Below are positions 4,185-58,355 of a DNA stretch of 64,000 bases, piece by piece. The notes below the pieces were generated by a model. It saw only the letters and a program-made list of their open reading frames with translations. It had not been told where the DNA came from and made no database searches. The position numbers and the translations under genes were made by a program. How positions within the stretch are numbered: the stretch's first letter is position 1; every line of letters begins with the position of its first letter. Source of the DNA: Burkholderiales bacterium (GTDB lineage: Bacteria > Pseudomonadota > Gammaproteobacteria > Burkholderiales > Burkholderiaceae_C); the NCBI GenBank assembly GCA_016185015.1, contig JACPOI010000016.1:62001-126000 (forward strand), given 5' to 3'.

Positions 4185-6704
4185 TCAAGTAGCCGCCTGC
4201 CGCAAGGTCTGCACCACCGGGCGGCGCAGCACGGACCGCAGGCCCCACCAGCCGGCCAGCCAGGCCAGCAGCGCGCCGCTGACCGCGCCGACCGGCAGCA
4301 GCCACCAGGTGACGGTCCATTCGAAGTTGAAGGCGTAACGGGCCAGCGCCCAGCCCACCACGGCCGAAACCACCGCGGCCAGAGCACCGGCCAGCGCGCC
4401 CACGCCCGCGAGTTCGGCGCGTTGCACCTGGCGCAGCAGGCCGCTGCCCGCACCCACGGCGCGCATGATGGCGTATTCACGCGCGCGCTCCTCGCGCGTG
4501 GCGGTGACGGCGGCAAACAGCACCACCAGACCCGCGGCCAGTGTGAAGCCGAAGAGGAACTCCACCGCGCGGCTGACCTGCTCCAGCACACGCTGCACCT
4601 GGGCCAGGGTCGCGCTCAGGTCCACCACGGTGATGTTGGGGAACTGGCGCACCAGGGCGCTGTCGAAACCGGGCTTGTCCGGCGCGCGCAGCGCGGCCAG
4701 GTAGGTGACCGGCAGCTCCGGCATCCGGCTCACCGGATACAACGCGAAGAAGTTGGCGCGCATGGAACCCCAGTCCACCTTGCGCAGCGAGGTGATCGTG
4801 CTCTCCTGCTGCAGACCGGCGATGTCGAAACGCAGCTTGTCGCCGAGCTTGAGGTTCAGGGTCTTGGCGATGCCCTCTTCCATGCTGATGCCCTGGGCAT
4901 CCTCGGCCGTCCAGCGGCCCGCCACGATGGGGTTGTGGCCCGGCGGCTGCGCGCTGTGCGAGAGATTGAACTCGCGCTCGACCAGGCGCTGCGCCCGGTC
5001 GTCCTCGTAGTCCTGCGCCTGCACTGGGCGGTCGTTGATGGCCACCAGGCGGCCGCGGATCATGGGGAACCAGTCGTAGCCGCTGACACCCGCCTCGCGC
5101 AGCTGGCGCTGGAAGGCCTCGGCCTGGTCGGGCTGGATGTTGATGACAAACCGGTTGGGCGCATCGGCCGGCGTGGCCTGGCGCCAGCTGCGTATCAGGT
5201 CGGTGCGCAGCAGCACCAGCAGCAGCAGGGCCAGCAGGCCCACGGCCAGGCTGCTGACCTGCAGCACGGCGTAGATGGGCCGGGCCGAGAGCTGGCGCGT
5301 GGCCAGCACCAGCCAGCGCGGCGCAGTGTTCTCGCGCACCACACGGCGCAGCAGCAGCACCGCACCCCAGCTGGCCAGCGCAAAGACGGCCACGGCGCCA
5401 GCAAAGCCGCCCACGGTGATCAGTCCCAGCTTCAGGTCGCTGCTGGCCGCCAGCAGCAGCACGGCAAAACCCAGCACGCCCAAGCCCAGAACGCCGATCG
5501 ACATGGGCCGCAGCGTGCCCAGGTCACGCCGGATCACACGCAGTGCGGGCACCTGGGCCAGCTGCAGCACGGGCGGCAGGCCGAAGGCCAGCATGAGCGT
5601 GAGTCCCATGCCCAGGCCAAAGAACACGGGCCACAGGCCGGGCGCCGGCAAAGCCGTATCCACCAGGCCCGCCAGCAGCAGCACAAAGACGTGGTGCACG
5701 GCCCAGCCCAGCGCCACGCCCAGAGCGCCGCCGGCCAGGCCCACCAGCAGGAACTCCAGCGCATGGCTGCGCGCGATGGTGGCTTGCGACAGGCCCAGCA
5801 CGCGCAGCATGGCGCAATCGTCCAGATGCTGGTTGGCAAAGGAACGTGCCGCCAGGCCCACGGCCACCGCACTCAGCAACGCGGCCAGCAGGGCCACGAG
5901 GTTGAGGAATTTCTCGGCACGCTCCAGCGTCTGCGCCATTTCGGGCCGCCCACCCCGCAGGGCTTCGATGCGCACGCCGCGCAGCTGCTCACGCTCCACC
6001 GCTTCATTGGCGCGCTTGACGAAGGCATTGACCACCTTGTCCTCGCCGGCTACGGCCAGGCGATAACTCACGCGGCTCGCGGGCTGGATCAGTTGCGTGG
6101 CGGCCAGGTCGGCCTGGTGGATCAGCGCACGCGGAGCAAAGTTGATGAAACCGGCACCGCGGTCAGGTTCCACGCCGATCAGGCGCGTGACGCGCAGGGC
6201 TGCCTCGCCCAACAACAGCTTGTCGCCGACCTTCAGGTCCAGGGCATCGAGCAGGGCCGGATCGGCCCAGACCTCACCCCGCGCCGGGATATCGCGCGTG
6301 GCCACCGCCGGCGTGCCCGCTTCCGTGCTGACGGTGAGTTTGCCGCGCAGCGGGTAACCAGCCTCCACCGCCTTGAGCGACACGAGGCGCGTGGCACCGC
6401 CGTGCTTGTCGTCGGCACGGGCCATGGTCGGGAAACTCAGGGAGCCCGAGACCTGCAGGCCACTTGCTTGGGCCAGCGCCAGCAGGCTGGCGGGCGTGGC
6501 GTTGTCGCTGACGATCACCGCGTCCCCGCCCAGCAACTGGCGCGCATCGCGCTGCATGCCGCCCTTGAGGCGGTCGGCGAAGAAACCCACGGCGGTCAGA
6601 GCCGCCACCGCCAGTGTCACGGCCAGGATCAGCAGGCGCAACTGGCCGGCACGCAGATCACGCCAGAGGGTTTTCCAGGCGAGTTGCCAGAAGGTGATGT
6701 TCAT
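4185..6704 (-). CDS. FtsX-family ABC transporter permease (YbbP-like)
   Basis: 839-aa inner-membrane protein starting MNITFWQLAWKTLWRD, with one N-terminal membrane helix, a large periplasmic domain, and repeated FtsX-type membrane blocks near residues 260-400, 400-500 and 740-835. This two-FtsX-domain layout matches YbbP, the permease of the YbbA-YbbP exporter linked to lipoprotein or lipid handling. The partner ATPase is not adjacent on either side, which is unusual. The stop codon falls inside a short AT-rich motif (GATAGCAATC on the plus strand) that recurs elsewhere in the window. Confidence 0.85.
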   Translation of the reverse strand: MNITFWQLAWKTLWRDLRAGQLRLLILAVTLAVAALTAVGFFADRLKGGMQRDARQLLGGDAVIVSDNATPASLLALAQASGLQVSGSLSFPTMARADDKHGGATRLVSLKAVEAGYPLRGKLTVSTEAGTPAVATRDIPARGEVWADPALLDALDLKVGDKLLLGEAALRVTRLIGVEPDRGAGFINFAPRALIHQADLAATQLIQPASRVSYRLAVAGEDKVVNAFVKRANEAVEREQLRGVRIEALRGGRPEMAQTLERAEKFLNLVALLAALLSAVAVGLAARSFANQHLDDCAMLRVLGLSQATIARSHALEFLLVGLAGGALGVALGWAVHHVFVLLLAGLVDTALPAPGLWPVFFGLGMGLTLMLAFGLPPVLQLAQVPALRVIRRDLGTLRPMSIGVLGLGVLGFAVLLLAASSDLKLGLITVGGFAGAVAVFALASWGAVLLLRRVVRENTAPRWLVLATRQLSARPIYAVLQVSSLAVGLLALLLLVLLRTDLIRSWRQATPADAPNRFVINIQPDQAEAFQRQLREAGVSGYDWFPMIRGRLVAINDRPVQAQDYEDDRAQRLVEREFNLSHSAQPPGHNPIVAGRWTAEDAQGISMEEGIAKTLNLKLGDKLRFDIAGLQQESTITSLRKVDWGSMRANFFALYPVSRMPELPVTYLAALRAPDKPGFDSALVRQFPNITVVDLSATLAQVQRVLEQVSRAVEFLFGFTLAAGLVVLFAAVTATREERAREYAIMRAVGAGSGLLRQVQRAELAGVGALAGALAAVVSAVVGWALARYAFNFEWTVTWWLLPVGAVSGALLAWLAGWWGLRSVLRRPVVQTLRQAAT

Positions 6705-6774
6705 GGGGCTAGCTTAGGGGATTTTGCTAATGGCTGGTGTGACAGGGTTTTCTTGAGCTCAGGTCCCTGACGGG

Positions 6775-7060
6775 GCTACGTGCCGGGATGTGCGCCCGGC
6801 AGCGCACTCACTTTCTCTTGCTTCGCCAAGAGAAAGTAAGCAAAGAGAAGGCGAGCCGAAGTCAGGGCCCCTGCGGGGTACCTTGCGCTGCTCGCATCGG
6901 GCGGGGTCGGGCTAAACTCGCTGCGCTCAAACAACGCCCGCCCTGATCCGCCCGCTGCTGCGCTGCTCAGCCCTGCCACACGGCAGGCTTTTGGGTACTT
7001 TGATTTGGCGAAGCAAAGAAAAGTACCTCGCCCGCCGGGGCGAGACCCGGCAAAGTCACA
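6775..7060. repeat. Intergenic repeat with inverted hairpin ends (TTGCTTCGCCAA type)
   Basis: Fills most of the 382-bp gap between the permease and fdhD; no gene was found. The left end carries a hairpin at 6811-6836 (CTTTCTCTTG, loop, CAAGAGAAAG). The right end at 7005-7024 is the inverted counterpart: the 20-base arms match at 17 positions around TTGCTTCGCCAA. A GC-rich central part with short direct and inverted repeats lies between. Elements of this sequence type are, from general knowledge, common in intergenic DNA of Burkholderiales. A role is not known to me. Confidence 0.75.
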
Positions 7061-7086
7061 CAAGAGAGAACGCCAGAAGAAAAAAG

Positions 7087-7935
7087 CTACGCCGCTGCGC
7101 GCAACTTAGGCCCAGCCAGTTCCGGCTGCAAAACCAAGCGCTGCGAAGCCGTATAGCAATAGAAATGCCGCCCCGTAGCACGACCAATGGCACACAAGCC
7201 CACACGTTCGGCAACGGCGTGGCCCATCTGCGTGATCCCGCTGCGTGAGACAACAATCGGCACCCCCATCTGCGCCGACTTGATCACCATCTCGCTGGTG
7301 AGCCGCCCCGTCGTGTAGAAGACCTTGTCGTCTCCGCTCATGGCCGAAGCGTCCTGCAACCACATCCAGCCCGCAATGGTGTCGATGGCATTGTGGCGCC
7401 CCACGTCTTCCACGAAAAGCAGCATCTCCTCGCCGCGGAACAGGGCGCAGCCGTGCACCGAGCCGGCGGATTTGTAAGTGCTTTCCTGCAGGCGGATGGC
7501 ATTGACGATGCCATAGAGTTGGGCCTGGGTAAGCGTGGCTTCGGGCAGCTGGATCTGGTCCACCTCGTCCATCATGTCGCCGAACACACTGCCCTGGCCG
7601 CAGCCTGTGGTGACCACGCGCTTGGACGTGCGTTCCTCGATGTCGGTGATGCCCGCGCGGGTCTTGACAGCGGCAGCGCCCACGTCCCAATCCACGGTGA
7701 TGGATTCGATCTCGTCCACCGAGCGCACCAGGCGCTGGTTGCGCAGGAAACCGAGCACCAGCAGTTCCGGGTGGCCGCCCAGGGTCATGAGCGTGACCAG
7801 CTCGCGCTTGTCGACGTAGACGGTAAGCGCCCGCTCTGCGGGGATGGACAACAGCGTGGCCTCACCGTGTTCGTTGACGGCCGTGACCTCGCGCGTCAGA
7901 GGCGCCTGGGCTCGGGTGAGATGGGGCAGGGGCAT
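7087..7935 (-). CDS. fdhD: Formate dehydrogenase sulfurtransferase FdhD (FdsC-type)
   Basis: 282-aa cytoplasmic protein that delivers sulfur to the Mo-bis-MGD cofactor of formate dehydrogenases, an essential activation step. Family features are TVYVDKRELVTLMTLGGHPELL, the TTGCGQGSVFGD loop, and a C-terminal half with MVIKSAQMGVPIVVSRSG. E. coli FdhD uses a CxxC pair in the loop. Here the pair reads CGQG, so only one cysteine remains. It lies at the end of the membrane formate dehydrogenase operon but is separated from it by a strong terminator, so it probably has its own promoter. Confidence 0.95.
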   Translation of the reverse strand: MPLPHLTRAQAPLTREVTAVNEHGEATLLSIPAERALTVYVDKRELVTLMTLGGHPELLVLGFLRNQRLVRSVDEIESITVDWDVGAAAVKTRAGITDIEERTSKRVVTTGCGQGSVFGDMMDEVDQIQLPEATLTQAQLYGIVNAIRLQESTYKSAGSVHGCALFRGEEMLLFVEDVGRHNAIDTIAGWMWLQDASAMSGDDKVFYTTGRLTSEMVIKSAQMGVPIVVSRSGITQMGHAVAERVGLCAIGRATGRHFYCYTASQRLVLQPELAGPKLRAAA

Positions 7936-53527: not shown

Positions 53528-55207
53528 ATGACAACACGCCGCAATTTCATCAGGACCCTGGGCGCCTTGCCCCCGGCCCTGACACTGGGCACCGGCTGGG
53601 CCAGCAGCGATCCCTCGCGTCAGGCCCTGGTGATCGGCAACAGCAGCTATCTGGATGCGCCTCTGGCCAACCCGGTCAACGACGCCCGCGCCGTGGCGGG
53701 CCTGCTGGGCCAGGCCGGGTTCACCGTGGCCTCGCACCTGGACGCACGGCGCACCGACATGATGGCCGCCATCGAACGCTTCACGGCCGAAGTGCGCAAG
53801 TCCGACACCAAGCTCGTGATGTTCTATTTCGCCGGCCACGGCGCCCAGCTCGACTGGCGCAACTACCTGCTGCCGGTGGACGCCAAGGCCGAGAGCGCCG
53901 ACCAGCTGCGCCAGAGCTGCATCGACCTGAACTACCTGATCGGCGAGTTCGGCAAGTCCAAGGGCAAGACCTTCATCATCATGCTGGACGCCTGCCGCAA
54001 CAACCCCTTCGGCAGCAGCTACCGGCCTGAACAAAAAGGCCTGTCGCAGTTCGACGCGCCGGTGGGCAGCCTGCTGGCCTATGCCACCTCGCCGGGCAAT
54101 GTGGCCTCCGACGGCAGCGGCCAGAACGGGCTTTACACCGAGAACCTGCTGCGTGAACTCTCGGTGCGGGGCACCAAGATCGAGGACGCGCTCAAGCGCG
54201 TGCGCCTCAATGTGCGCCTGGCGTCCAACGGCGCCCAGATCCCCTGGGAGACCACCTCGCTCGAAAACGACGTTTTCATTTTCGATGGCGGCAAGTCCAA
54301 GCTCAGCGAGGCCGAGCAGGAGAAGCTGATCGAGGAAGACATGGCCGAATGGGGCCGCATCAAGTCATCGGGCAAGATCGACGACTACGCAGGCTACCTG
54401 CGCAAGTTCCCCAACGGCCGCTTCGCCGAGATCGTGCAGGCCAGGCTGGCGCGCCTGCTGGTCGAGGTCGAAAAATCCAGGCCCCAGGCCAGCGCGGCGC
54501 CTGCCAACGCCGACAACCGGCCCACCATCAAGCTCGGCCCGGGCCTGCCGGTCCCGGTTTTCATGGAGCCCACCCTCAACCCTTACTCCGCCGGCCGCTA
54601 TCCGCTGGGTCGCAATTTCACGGTGGGTGACATCTACAAATTGCGGCAGAGCGACACCCTGACCGGGGTGGAGGCACGCATGCTGACAGCGCAGGTCACG
54701 AAAGTGGACCGTGGCGCCGACCGGGTCGAGATGGACAACGGTGCCATCGTGACGGACCTGATGGGCAACGCGGTCAAGTTCGGCCCCGTTGAATACGATG
54801 CGCCTATACAGAACTACCCGGCAGAGTTGCAGATCGGCAAGAAGTGGCCCAGCGTCGGCCGCGTCACCATCAAGGGCAAGACTTCGGACTTCAACTTCGA
54901 CTATCAGATCACCCGCCGGGAAACCATCACGGTGCCCGCCGGGACCTTCGACACCTTCGTGATCGAAGCCCGGGGCTGGAACCGGACCTACGGCAGCAGC
55001 CTGAGCCATACGCTGTGGGTGGTGCCCGGGCTCAACGTGGCCGTCAAGCGCGAATACATCGCCCGCAACAACCGTGGCAACTACGTGACCACGGACCGTT
55101 TCGAGCTGGTGGAGCTGAGCCAGGGCAGCGTTGACGCCAGTTGTGCCGCGCCCCTGGGCGGCACGGCGCAGCGCAATCTCGTGATCAAGAGCAACTGCGC
55201 CAGCTGA
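53528..55207 (+). CDS. Tat-exported caspase-like (peptidase C14) protein
   Basis: 559 aa. A Tat signal (TTRRNFIRTLG) leads a caspase domain (about residues 30-255) starting RQALVIGNSSYLDAPLANPVNDA. The catalytic dyad is H104 (YFAGHGAQ) and C156 (IMLDACRNNPF). After an acidic linker comes a beta-rich C-terminal half (about 335-559) of unrecognised family, with DFNFDYQITRRETITVPAGTFDTFVIEARGW. Metacaspase-like proteins cleave after Arg/Lys. Periplasmic location is predicted. A role in cell death or stress is only a general possibility. The MITE-like element lies 33 bp upstream and may hold or alter its promoter. Confidence 0.88.
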   Translation: MTTRRNFIRTLGALPPALTLGTGWASSDPSRQALVIGNSSYLDAPLANPVNDARAVAGLLGQAGFTVASHLDARRTDMMAAIERFTAEVRKSDTKLVMFYFAGHGAQLDWRNYLLPVDAKAESADQLRQSCIDLNYLIGEFGKSKGKTFIIMLDACRNNPFGSSYRPEQKGLSQFDAPVGSLLAYATSPGNVASDGSGQNGLYTENLLRELSVRGTKIEDALKRVRLNVRLASNGAQIPWETTSLENDVFIFDGGKSKLSEAEQEKLIEEDMAEWGRIKSSGKIDDYAGYLRKFPNGRFAEIVQARLARLLVEVEKSRPQASAAPANADNRPTIKLGPGLPVPVFMEPTLNPYSAGRYPLGRNFTVGDIYKLRQSDTLTGVEARMLTAQVTKVDRGADRVEMDNGAIVTDLMGNAVKFGPVEYDAPIQNYPAELQIGKKWPSVGRVTIKGKTSDFNFDYQITRRETITVPAGTFDTFVIEARGWNRTYGSSLSHTLWVVPGLNVAVKREYIARNNRGNYVTTDRFELVELSQGSVDASCAAPLGGTAQRNLVIKSNCAS

Positions 55208-55219
55208 AGCCGCAAGGCC

Positions 55220-56284
55220 TCAGCGGATGACCAACCGGCCCGCCGCTGCGTCGGTGATCTCACCGATCTCGGCCGCGGCTTCGAAGCCATGCTGGCGGAA
55301 GATGGCCAGCACCTGCGCCACGCTCTCGGGCGCGCAGCTCACCAGCAGGCCACCGCTGGTCTGCGGGTCGGTCAGCAGGGCCTGGTCGACCTCGGCGTAG
55401 CCGGGGGGCAGCGTGACCGAGCTGCCATAGCCAGCCCAGTTGCGACCGGAAGCGCCGGTGACCATGCCCTGGGTGGCCAGCTCGCGCACACCCTGCAGCA
55501 GCGGCACCTTGTTCCAGTCGATCTGCACGGTGCAGTTGGCGCCGCGCGCCAGCTCCAGGGCGTGGCCCGCCAGGCCGAAACCGGTGACGTCGGTCAGCGC
55601 GTGCACGCCGGCCAGTTCGGCCAGTTCGGGGCCGGGCGTGTTGAGTTTCGTGGTGGTGGCGATCATCTGCGCATAACCGGCCGCGTCGAGCTTTTCCTTC
55701 TTCAGCGCGGCCGAGAGCACGCCCACGCCCAGCGGCTTGCCCAGGATGAGGCGGTCGCCCACGCGCGCGTCGGCATTGCGCTTGACGCGTTTCGGATGCA
55801 CCAGGCCCATGGCCACCAGGCCGTAGATGGGCTCCACGGAATCGATGGTGTGGCCGCCGGCAATCGGAATGCCCGCGGCTTTGCACACGGCCTGGCCACC
55901 GGCCAGGATCTTGCCGATGGTGTCGGTGGAGAGCACGCTGATGGGCATGCCCACCAGGGCCAGCGCCATGATGGGCTTGCCGCCCATGGCGTACACATCC
56001 GAGATGGCGTTGGTGGCGGCGATGCGGCCAAAGTCGAAGGGGTCGTCGACGATGGGCATGAAGAAGTCGGTGGTGGCGATCAGGGCCTGCTCGTCGTTGA
56101 TCTGGTAGACGGCCGCGTCATCGGCGGTCTCGATGCCCACCAGCAGTTCGGCCGGCACCGGCATGCCGCTGCCGCTCTTGAGGATTTCGGAGAGCACGCC
56201 GGGAGCGATCTTGCAGCCGCAACCGCCGCCGTGCGAAAGCGAGGTCAGGCGGGGTTCGGACTTGGGGAGGGTCATGTTGTTCAT
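55220..56284 (-). CDS. senC: Selenophosphate synthetase in a selenoneine operon (SenC/SelD)
   Basis: 354 aa; makes selenophosphate from selenide and ATP. The catalytic Cys/Lys motif is GGGCGCK (C22, C24, K25, equivalent to E. coli C17, C19 and K20). ATP-binding motifs include ETADDAAVYQI and TDFFMPIVDDPFDFGRIAATNAISDVYAMGG. It overlaps senB by 4 bp (ATGA). The operon context egtD-senB-this gene points to the SenC role of supplying selenophosphate for a selenosugar, rather than selenocysteine tRNA; the two cannot be told apart by sequence. Nearby formate dehydrogenases use Cys, not Sec. Confidence 0.88.
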   Translation of the reverse strand: MNNMTLPKSEPRLTSLSHGGGCGCKIAPGVLSEILKSGSGMPVPAELLVGIETADDAAVYQINDEQALIATTDFFMPIVDDPFDFGRIAATNAISDVYAMGGKPIMALALVGMPISVLSTDTIGKILAGGQAVCKAAGIPIAGGHTIDSVEPIYGLVAMGLVHPKRVKRNADARVGDRLILGKPLGVGVLSAALKKEKLDAAGYAQMIATTTKLNTPGPELAELAGVHALTDVTGFGLAGHALELARGANCTVQIDWNKVPLLQGVRELATQGMVTGASGRNWAGYGSSVTLPPGYAEVDQALLTDPQTSGGLLVSCAPESVAQVLAIFRQHGFEAAAEIGEITDAAAGRLVIR

Positions 56285-57255
56285 GTGAGATCCTGGAGCA
56301 GCGCCAGCAGGGCCGCACGTTCGGCAGCCGGCGCAAACAGCGGCGCGCGAAGGCGACATTTTGCCTGCAAGGCTGCGATCCTGCTCGACGCCTGCCCCAT
56401 GTCCACACGGCAGGCCTGCAGCAGTTGCGCAAGCGCGGCGGCATCCCCGCAGGGGAAGTAGCCGGGATAGTCCGGGCCCAGCATGCCCACATTGCCGGGG
56501 ATGTGCGAGGCCAGCACCGGCGTGCCGCTGCAGATGGCTTCCATCAGCACATGCGCACCGCCTTCCATGCGGCTGGCGTGGATCAGCAGGTGTGCGCGCT
56601 GGATGTGCCGGCGGGTGGCCTCGTGCGCCAGGCCACCGAGCCAGCGGTAGTTGGGACAGGCGGCCATGGTGGCGCGCGCCTGTGCGCCCAGCGCCGGATC
56701 GAGCGCCTCGCCGATGTGGTCAATGTGAATGTCGTGCCGCGCGCGCAGCAGCTGCGCTGCCTCGAACAGGGTCTGCGGCGACTTCTCCTCGCGCAGATGG
56801 CCCACCATGACGGCGCGCAGGTGCCGACCGGTCTTCTCCAGCGGCCGGCGCGTCGTGGTGGACTGGAAGATCACGCGCGCCTTGCCGCGGTGCCCGGCAG
56901 GCAGGGCCTGCGGCCCCTGCTCCTGCAGCACGACCAGCCGCTGCGCCAGCGCCAGCGAACGTTGCGCGGATTCGTCCTCTTGGATATCACGGTAGAGGTC
57001 GGTGCCCGTCAGCACCACGGCCAGGCCGCGGCCTGGCTGGGCCTGCGCCCAGGCCGCGATGGACGCCGCACTGCGCCGCGCATGCAGCGCCAGCATCGCC
57101 ACGGCATCGGGGTGCTCGCCAGGCTGCCAGGCCTTGACGATGCAGGTGCGGTAGTGGCCGGCCAGCAGGCGTGACCAGCGCCAGGCCGTCTGCCAGTTGC
57201 CATTGTTGGCGTCGGCCAGCGCCGGGCTGACGATCAGGACCAGCGGCGTGGCCAT
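56281..57255 (-). CDS. senB: Selenosugar synthase SenB-like glycosyltransferase
   Basis: 324-aa GT-B type glycosyltransferase-like protein. The start MATPLVLIVSPALADANNGNWQTAWRWSRLL is typical of the SenB family; the C-terminal half has the nucleotide-sugar region VMVGHLREEKSPQTLFEAAQLL and HASRMEGGAHVLMEAICSGTPVLAS. SenB couples selenophosphate to a UDP-sugar to give a selenosugar, a C-Se bond donor for selenoneine (established for Variovorax paradoxus). It lies between egtD (1 bp gap) and the selenophosphate synthetase gene (4-bp overlap), a tight operon that strongly supports the call. Confidence 0.85.
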   Translation of the reverse strand: MATPLVLIVSPALADANNGNWQTAWRWSRLLAGHYRTCIVKAWQPGEHPDAVAMLALHARRSAASIAAWAQAQPGRGLAVVLTGTDLYRDIQEDESAQRSLALAQRLVVLQEQGPQALPAGHRGKARVIFQSTTTRRPLEKTGRHLRAVMVGHLREEKSPQTLFEAAQLLRARHDIHIDHIGEALDPALGAQARATMAACPNYRWLGGLAHEATRRHIQRAHLLIHASRMEGGAHVLMEAICSGTPVLASHIPGNVGMLGPDYPGYFPCGDAAALAQLLQACRVDMGQASSRIAALQAKCRLRAPLFAPAAERAALLALLQDLT

Positions 57256-57256
57256 G

Positions 57257-58222
57257 TCAGGCTTGCGCCCAGTACACAGCAAACCAGCCACGCTCATCCG
57301 TCCAGGCCTGCACGCGCGCAAAACCCGCTGCGGCCAGCAGGGCCTGGAAATCGGCCAGGGCGTACTTGCAGGAGTTCTCGGTATGCATGCGCTCGCCCCG
57401 GGCAAAACGACGTTCGCCGTCAGGCCAGCGCACGGTGAGTTCGCGCCGGGCCTCCAGGTGCATCTCGATGCGCGAGGCCGTCTCGTTGAAAAAGGCCACG
57501 TGCGACCAGTCGTGCACGGCGAAGTCGCTGCCCAGCAGGCGGTTGAGGTGCAGCAGCAGGTTCTTGTTGAAGGCGGCCGTCACGCCCAGTGCGTCGTCGT
57601 AGGCCGGCTCCAGCAGTTCCCGCGGCTTGACCAGGTCCACCCCGATCAGCAGGCCGCCGCCCTGGGCCTGCGCACGCACCTGGCGCAGGAAGACCAGCGC
57701 CTCCTCGGGCGTGAAGTTGCCGATGCTGGAGCCCGGATAGAACAGCAGGTGCGGGCCCTCGCCCACCTCGGGCGGCAGCGTCAGCTGCGAGGAAAAATCC
57801 AGCCCCACACCCAGCATGTCCAGCGTGGGGAACTGGCGCTGCAGACACTGCAAGGCGTTGTTCAGGTAGTCCACCGAGATGTCCACCGCCACGTAACGCG
57901 CGGGCTGCAGCAGGCCGAACAGGCGCGCCGCCTTCTCGCAGTTGCCGGCGCCCAGGTCCACCAGCGTAGCGCCCCGGGGCACCTCCGCGGCGATGGCCGC
58001 ACCGTGCGCGGCCAACAGGGCGGCCTCGGTGCGCGTGGGGTAGTACTCGGGCAGCTCGGTGATGGCGTCGAACAGGCGCGAACCCAGCGGGTCGTAGAGG
58101 TATTTGGGCGAGGTCCGTGCCGGCGTGGCCAGCAGGCCCTGGGCCAGCTCCTGGCGCAGCGCCGCGCGGTCTTCATGGTGGAGCTGGATGAAACGTGGCT
58201 GGCGCAGCCCGGTGGATGACAT
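57257..58222 (-). CDS. egtD: L-histidine N-alpha-methyltransferase (EgtD)
   Basis: 321 aa; trimethylates histidine to hercynine with SAM, the precursor of ergothioneine and selenoneine. Motifs: SPKYLYDPLGSRLFDAITELPEYYPTRTE, VDLGAGNCEKAARLF (SAM), LLFYPGSSIGNFTPEEA, and ENSCKYALADF near the end. Length is normal for EgtD. The ATG at 58222 (MSSTGLRQPRF) was chosen. It is the first gene of egtD-senB-senC. The synthase that would join hercynine with the selenium or sulfur donor (SenA/EgtB) is not in the window. Confidence 0.92.
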   Translation of the reverse strand: MSSTGLRQPRFIQLHHEDRAALRQELAQGLLATPARTSPKYLYDPLGSRLFDAITELPEYYPTRTEAALLAAHGAAIAAEVPRGATLVDLGAGNCEKAARLFGLLQPARYVAVDISVDYLNNALQCLQRQFPTLDMLGVGLDFSSQLTLPPEVGEGPHLLFYPGSSIGNFTPEEALVFLRQVRAQAQGGGLLIGVDLVKPRELLEPAYDDALGVTAAFNKNLLLHLNRLLGSDFAVHDWSHVAFFNETASRIEMHLEARRELTVRWPDGERRFARGERMHTENSCKYALADFQALLAAAGFARVQAWTDERGWFAVYWAQA

Positions 58223-58324
58223 GCGGCCAATATATAGCAGTGCCCCCCCGCGGCGGGCACCCCGGCATTGTGGTTTCCACGGCTGGCGCCCCCTGCCATC
58301 CTGGCGCACAATGCCCGGTCTAGA

Positions 58325-58355
58325 TGTTTACACTAGACTTAAAAGTGTAGACAAT
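58325..58355 (+). promoter_or_regulatory. Promoter with overlapping operator-like inverted repeat
   Basis: TGTTTACACT at 58325-58334 and AGTGTAGACA at 58344-58353 form an inverted repeat with one mismatch. Within it lie TTTACA (58327-58332) and, 17 bp on, GACAAT (58350-58355), a plausible -35/-10 pair for the Bug receptor gene. An operator overlapping both elements suggests repression, for example by a GntR-type regulator not in this window. Confidence 0.6.

Follow-up and report, generated by a model that had tools for sequence, protein, structure and literature searches.

A putative selenoneine operon of a Burkholderiales bacterium whose last enzyme, SenA, is very probably encoded in trans

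A stretch of 64,000 nucleotides from a Burkholderiales bacterium (hereafter the window; C54:62001-126000 of a 66-contig genome that is 95.76% complete with 4.58% estimated contamination) carries a minus-strand operon of three genes, egtD, senB and selD/senC. The operon very probably supplies the EgtD, SenB and SenC steps in the synthesis of the selenium antioxidant selenoneine, with the gene for the final enzyme located in trans, and a SenA-family protein on another contig, belonging to a clade named SenA-II here, is most likely the predicted selenoneine synthase of this genome. Completion of the pathway in trans by this protein is argued from its intact residues, from the single copies of the genes involved, and from an association across genomes between SenB and the integrity of the SenA-II active site. 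By homology to Variovorax paradoxus, SelD/SenC would make selenophosphate, SenB would combine selenophosphate with a uridine diphosphate (UDP)-sugar into a selenosugar, EgtD would produce hercynine by trimethylating histidine, and SenA, an iron enzyme, would join hercynine to the selenosugar, after which the selenoxide would collapse to selenoneine.

The first gene of the operon, egtD (57257..58222, minus strand; ATG at 58222, stop at 57257, 321 amino acids), encodes the histidine N-alpha-methyltransferase that makes hercynine. The selenosugar synthase gene senB (56281..57255, minus strand, 324 amino acids) begins one base past the egtD stop, and an ATGA overlap joins its end to the start of the selenophosphate synthetase gene selD/senC (55220..56284, minus strand, 354 amino acids). 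All three proteins exceed their NCBIfam cut-offs, in agreement with the original prediction of tightly packed EgtD, SenB-type and selenophosphate synthetase genes. EgtD scored 382.2 bits with TIGR03438 (cut-off 290.9), also matched PF10017, and aligned with the PDB EgtD 4uy6 at E 2e-58. The protein at 56.3-57.3 kb, for which a glycosyltransferase family other than SenB had been considered, is placed as SenB by 451.8 bits with TIGR04348 (cut-off 300; NCBIfam name, selenosugar synthase SenB), and its best PDB matches are the SenB chains 8fbx and 8jjn (E about 1e-121). In the PDB alignment with V. paradoxus SenB it retains N20, T23, K158, E231 and the EGGAHV motif, whose role is described in PMC10891094. 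SelD/SenC scored 435.3 bits with TIGR00476 (cut-off 125) and 547.8 bits with NF002098, and matched PDB 3u0o at E 1e-98. Its N-terminal GCGCK, present with the cysteine as GGGCGCK in the alignment with 3u0o, contains what we take to be a functional cysteine. Whole-genome profile searches found egtD, senB and selD over cut-off in one copy each, with the remaining matches to SelD at or below 48.8 bits; as the sole copy, selD presumably also covers whatever other selenium needs the cell has.

The original prediction described a locus without its synthase and proposed a whole-genome search for SenA/EgtB-type enzymes. Whole-genome searches with PF03781 and the SenA model NF041186 found no such gene in the window on either side of egtD, as had been noted, and both led to one and the same protein on contig C33, so that the description fails at the level of the genome. 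The corresponding senA (C33:176031-177311, equal to L003:6032-7312; 426 amino acids) scored 505.8 bits with NF041186 (cut-off 420) and 240.3 bits with the EgtB model TIGR03440, below its cut-off of 360; the best PDB matches of the protein are the SenA structures 8ryz and 8k5i (E 3e-112). Since senA lies deep inside its contig, at 176-177 kb of 242 kb, it cannot be a fragment split off from the locus in the window. Loss of a linked senA through assembly error was rejected on the same ground, and because the two loci lie about 1.8 Mb apart in a congener assembled as one contig (G013); the distance is 388 kb in G007.

The residues expected of a selenoneine synthase are retained in this protein. 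Its H70, H164 and H168 align with H51, H134 and H138 of EgtB (4x8b, chain numbering one higher), which are the iron ligands of that enzyme (PMC13426267), and the V. paradoxus SenA equivalents are H71, H167 and H171. In alignments read by eye, Y379, N408 and Y409 fall at the sites changed in PDB 8ux5, the title of which names a hercynine-binding OvsA variant with selenoneine-biosynthetic activity (M401Y/Q430N/A431F). The SenA of the window's genome therefore has both the iron-ligand histidines and the hercynine-type residues (Y, N, F/Y). It does not fall in the V. paradoxus SenA clade, and no contiguous cluster with senA beside senB and senC is formed.

A maximum-likelihood tree of 82 SenA-type proteins, hand-picked from the hits and not random, placed the protein within a 53-row clade (support 100/100) apart from V. 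paradoxus SenA. This clade, SenA-II, holds 3 of the 22 senB-linked tree rows, V. paradoxus included. The protein shares 42-53% identity with 27 proteins sampled from the V. paradoxus clade and 41-92% with 107 other SenA-II proteins. Because the tree put it in another clade, the presence of a SenA was rejected as a sufficient answer and a residue test became necessary.

Active-site integrity was scored on the three histidines and on a wider motif. The strict motif included R364 and D365; the relaxed, final motif drops both, a change made after Polaromonas copies beside senB were found without one or both. Among the first 52 scorable SenA-II copies, 23 came from genomes that have SenB but no other SenA linked to senB, and 21 of these had all three histidines, compared with 10 of the remaining 29. 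A prediction was then set down before 55 further copies were fetched: decay was confirmed in each of the 54 copies for which it had been predicted, and the copy in G204, predicted intact, kept the histidines and the motif except R364. Over the resulting 107 copies, with an unscorable row from G012 left out and the class with another SenA widened from senB-linked SenA to take in G041, G122 and G209, the relaxed motif was intact in 22/23 copies accompanied by SenB without another SenA, 1/36 with SenB and another SenA, and 1/48 without SenB (2/84 for the last two classes together). The corresponding values were 21/23, 1/36 and 1/48 for the strict motif and 22/23, 7/36 and 8/48 for the histidines alone. 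For comparison, 26 of 27 rows of the V. paradoxus clade pass the relaxed motif, L101 being the failure.

A set drawn from named genomes, comprising the best 80 of 205 matching loci, with SenB scored for all 80 and SenA for the 48 SenB-positive genomes, gave a similar picture. All 80 loci fall in SenA-II (14 are identical to rows already used), and by the relaxed motif 29 are intact and 51 decayed. Intact sites were present in 26/28 loci with SenB and no other SenA versus 3/52 others. None of the 20 copies in genomes with SenB and another SenA was intact; the other SenA lies beside senB in 18 of these, and L252 and L262, whose second SenA is unlinked to senB, were included in the class. Of 32 copies without a SenB match three were intact, in assemblies of 2.8, 1.8 and 2.0 Mb from which SenB may be missing. 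The pattern also appears within genera, intact versus damaged, in G223 versus G140 (g116) and G204 versus G113 (g89); further contrasts are Polaromonas jejuensis (L213) versus Polaromonas copies beside senB, and Hylemonella gracilis versus most of the window's genus. An intact active site in SenA-II is thus almost confined to SenB genomes in which it is the sole SenA. The window's genome belongs to this class, and its SenA-II is therefore most likely its synthase in trans.

Several points weigh against this assignment. The tested SenA belongs to a clade other than SenA-II, to whose sampled members the protein on C33 has the 42-53% identity given above, and SenA-II persists in genomes without SenB or EgtD, so that its presence alone proves nothing. 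The rule has exceptions on both sides: the site is lost despite SenB in G206, the strict motif is broken in G204 and L217 and L221 are decayed, and intact copies occur outside the expected class in G091, G017, L187, L196 and L208 (G017 and L187 apparently represent one genome). Relatedness inflates the association between SenB and site integrity; on the combined FastTree tree, about 17 independent losses are needed if loss is irreversible. The relaxed motif was fixed after part of the data had been seen. Finally, no 8-mer was common to at least 5 of 12 egtD and at least 5 of 11 senA upstream regions.

The layout was compared across 26 Curvibacter/Hylemonella-type genomes, the window's own included, in which SenB was found over cut-off in 19, SenA in 15, EgtD in 18 and SelD in 24. 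Reading of the fetched loci revealed egtD, senB and selD in order without senA between them in 16 genomes, including two loci with a gene cut by a contig end (L037 and L041), one with selD in two pieces (L031), and two genomes with a SelD of a different, longer type (G010 and G025). In these last two, a frame of about 760 amino acids replaces selD after egtD-senB (G025, L020:3143-5425; G010, L021:6582-8867); its N-terminus is oxidoreductase-like by eye, and its C-terminus is SelD-like and 33% identical to the window SelD. A remote SenA of the SenA-II clade was present in 14 of the 16 (the G012 copy is interrupted by unread bases), and no SenA was found in G020 and G022, which are 83% and 85% complete. 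The two-locus layout, occurring in 14 of the 19 SenB-bearing genomes, is usual in the genus. The suspected variation in layout among relatives was also borne out: in G005 egtD, senA, senB and selD lie together, with senA between egtD and senB on the opposite strand, an order that recurs in other genera (L161-L163). G014 and G015 contain senB-selD, with no EgtD found and weak FGE-type matches only to the SenA model, and G002, G003, G004 and G018 contain SenA-type genes, with no SenB over cut-off and no EgtD.

A wider, evenly drawn sample of 250 genomes of the family, each with a completeness of at least 90%, contained SenB in 92, SenA over cut-off in 93, and EgtD at 1e-60 in 173. SenA matches were listed to about 373 bits and EgtD matches to about 351 bits, and the following linkage counts are lower bounds. 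At least 61 of the 92 SenB genomes had a listed SenA match within 8 kb; SenA over cut-off was located elsewhere in 16, at least 9 of which have egtD beside senB as in the window; and 15 had no SenA over cut-off among the matches listed. Three of these 15 (G163, G239 and G041) have a weaker SenA next to senB, which is why the linkage counts are lower bounds. SenA-II, assigned by a conservative BLAST cut, was present in 71 of the 250 genomes, of which 36 have SenB and EgtD, 29 EgtD only, and 6 neither; by this distribution SenA-II lacks the tie to SenB that marks the senB-linked clade.

These surveys bear on whether the selenosugar, with or without hercynine, instead feeds another product while the SenA-II of this genome does unrelated work, a different product having been the second alternative of the original prediction. 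SenB and SelD do occur without SenA or EgtD found, in G014, G015 and 10 of the 250 family genomes (SenB found, but neither a SenA nor, at 1e-60, an EgtD match); senB stands there with selD or an other-type SelD, with no EgtD or strong SenA found (L015 in G015, L016 in G014, and L164-L173), and N20, T23, K158 and E231 of SenB are kept in all 12. Furthermore, 35 of the 71 SenA-II genomes lack SenB. In the window, however, hercynine and the selenosugar, the two substrates of SenA, would come from one operon, and the SenA-II of its genome keeps the iron site and hercynine-binding residues that are mostly lost elsewhere. A different product is not needed here and is quite improbable, and selenosugar use without SenA may instead apply in SenB-only genomes such as those 10.

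Selenoneine synthesis completed by SenA-II was weighed against two further explanations. A mainly sulfur-based pathway, in which SenB and SenA would handle a thiosugar and make ergothioneine, draws on the related folds of SenA and EgtB, but SelD lies within the operon, the SenA is far under the EgtB cut-off, and SenB uses selenophosphate in V. paradoxus (PMC10702425), so we consider it very improbable. The 66 contigs and the estimated contamination of 4.58% would also allow the senA contig to be foreign to the assembly and the organism to be without SenA. However, SenA (92%) and the operon proteins (91-95%) are all closest to G007 among the genus loci compared, and congeners assembled in one or four contigs have the same two loci; we give this explanation the least credence of all, close to none. 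The other alternative of the original prediction, a SenA encoded elsewhere, is supported by the C33 protein, its intact residues and the association across genomes.

Comparison with known systems places the operon in context. The sen cluster of V. paradoxus is senA-senB-senC (PMC9814287 and PMC10702425) and, like the window's genome, provides SenB, SenC and an enzyme of the SenA family that has identical catalytic residues and hercynine as co-substrate; in the window's genome, by contrast, senA belongs to another clade and is not linked to senB, whose operon begins with egtD. The egtD-senA-senB-selD clusters of L161, L162 and L163 from related genera, and that of L013 from the window's own genus, have egtD, senB and selD in the order and orientation of the window (the SelD of L162 is of another type), but with senA between egtD and senB on the opposite strand, where the window has a single base between egtD and senB. 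Where SenA-II stands beside senB-selD (G223, G115, G030 and six Polaromonas loci), the SenA clade is the same, the relaxed motif is intact, and SenB and SelD are present, the difference being one locus instead of two. The ovoselenol enzyme OvsA and EgtB share the fold and three-histidine site with the SenA on C33, which differs from them in lower identity, hercynine-type residues and a score below the EgtB cut-off. As a predicted supply unit for selenoneine, the operon in the window is ordinary; what is unusual is where the last gene of the pathway is located.

SenA-II adjoins senB in G223, G115, G030, G204 and the six Polaromonas loci. In the window's genus, tripartite ATP-independent periplasmic (TRAP) transporter genes are usually divergent upstream of it, and a LysR-type regulator is usually convergent downstream, followed by tungstate-uptake genes. 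At L003:7258-11667 the 3' end of senA-II overlaps the convergent regulator, which has a PBP-like domain, and the tungstate-uptake genes follow; a LysR-type regulator holds that place in 36 of 108 SenA-II loci. The first two sets contain 71 ligand-lost loci, of which 27 have dctQ divergent upstream within 1.5 kb and 24 have tupB downstream within 4 kb, indicating that these neighbours are frequent but not general. In seven loci with no SenB (G116, G208, G140, G142, G083, G121 and G070) selD is divergent at 32-191 bp from senA-II, and in G223, G115 and G030 senB fills this gap, with selD about 980 bp off. The simplest reading is that the seven descend from a senA-II/senB-selD cluster from which senB would have been deleted; the lineage of the window instead has the sen genes in two places. 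In the SenB tree, the SenBs served by SenA-II form a few sets, not one (5 label changes; shuffled mean, 21.8).

Damaged SenA-II copies are retained as open frames. The 55 further copies each form one frame of 383-648 amino acids, and 131 unique damaged proteins have about 100 positions in common with a conservation of at least 93%. The ratio of non-synonymous to synonymous substitution rates (dN/dS; Nei-Gojobori) was 0.05-0.41 in 35 overlapping ligand-lost pairs more than 72% identical, compared with 0.06-0.20 in eight intact pairs. Open frames under purifying selection suggest that SenA-II probably has a second role. Among the 131 damaged proteins, the first two histidines are kept and the third lost in 76, often through replacement by arginine; all three are kept with a broken motif in 15, and other patterns account for 40. 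In evolved EgtB, changes of H51 or H134 abolish activity and lower iron content, and changes of H138 in one variant leave some non-native activity (PMC13426267); from this tolerance at H138, many SenA-II may still bind iron. We hold it an even chance that SenA-II has two jobs, acting as selenoneine synthase in the window's lineage while in most other sampled genomes that carry it, where SenB is absent or is served by another SenA, the hercynine and iron sites were lost repeatedly and the protein kept, perhaps in many cases as a two-histidine iron protein with new chemistry and not as a dead enzyme, in a role perhaps tied to the TRAP and tungstate neighbours. The AlphaFold model of the intact SenA-II L185 is fair (mean predicted local distance difference test score, pLDDT, 73.6), with SenA structures as best matches; that of the ligand-lost L199 from H. 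gracilis is poor (58.3) and was not used. Among the matches listed from open-licence literature, no title or abstract dealt with SenA paralogues or damaged SenA. Two of seven ligand-lost proteins scanned, L213 (5995-7230; 476.1 bits) and L226 of Piscinibacter defluvii (5977-7200; 461.8 bits), pass the SenA cut-off, so a NF041186 score alone is no sign of activity.

Upstream of egtD, a -10-like hexamer, TATATT (58229..58234, minus strand), lies 6 nt before the ATG and is, from sequence only, a possible promoter of a leaderless or near-leaderless message; a TATA-type stretch occurs at about that distance in the 12 egtD upstream regions of the genus that were compared. In most congener regions compared, a -10-like hexamer stands about 6-8 nt before the ATG of both egtD (58222 in the window) and senA (L003:6032), a spacing that suggests leaderless starts. 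A tctC-type gene (58432, plus strand) is divergent from egtD, and an inverted repeat, TGTCTACACTTTTAAGTCTAGTGTAAACA (58325-58353), lies between the two. Similar sequences are present in L006, L009 and L038, and the repeat is a possible operator. Just beyond selD and convergent with it is a caspase-like (peptidase C14) gene (53528-55207), a relative of which is also found near the operon in L035 and L031.

These results indicate that a sen cluster should not be called incomplete where senA is merely elsewhere. Databases would label as selenoneine synthase any ligand-lost copy that scores above the SenA cut-off, and since the SenA model fails to separate intact from damaged proteins, counts of producers need SenB together with a residue check. 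Genomes in which SenB was found but neither SenA nor EgtD are direct candidates for further selenosugar products. SenA-II represents a natural experiment in which the integrity of the site follows the presence of the substrate supplier, and the more surprising result is that a SenA lineage persists although loss of its catalytic site has occurred many times.

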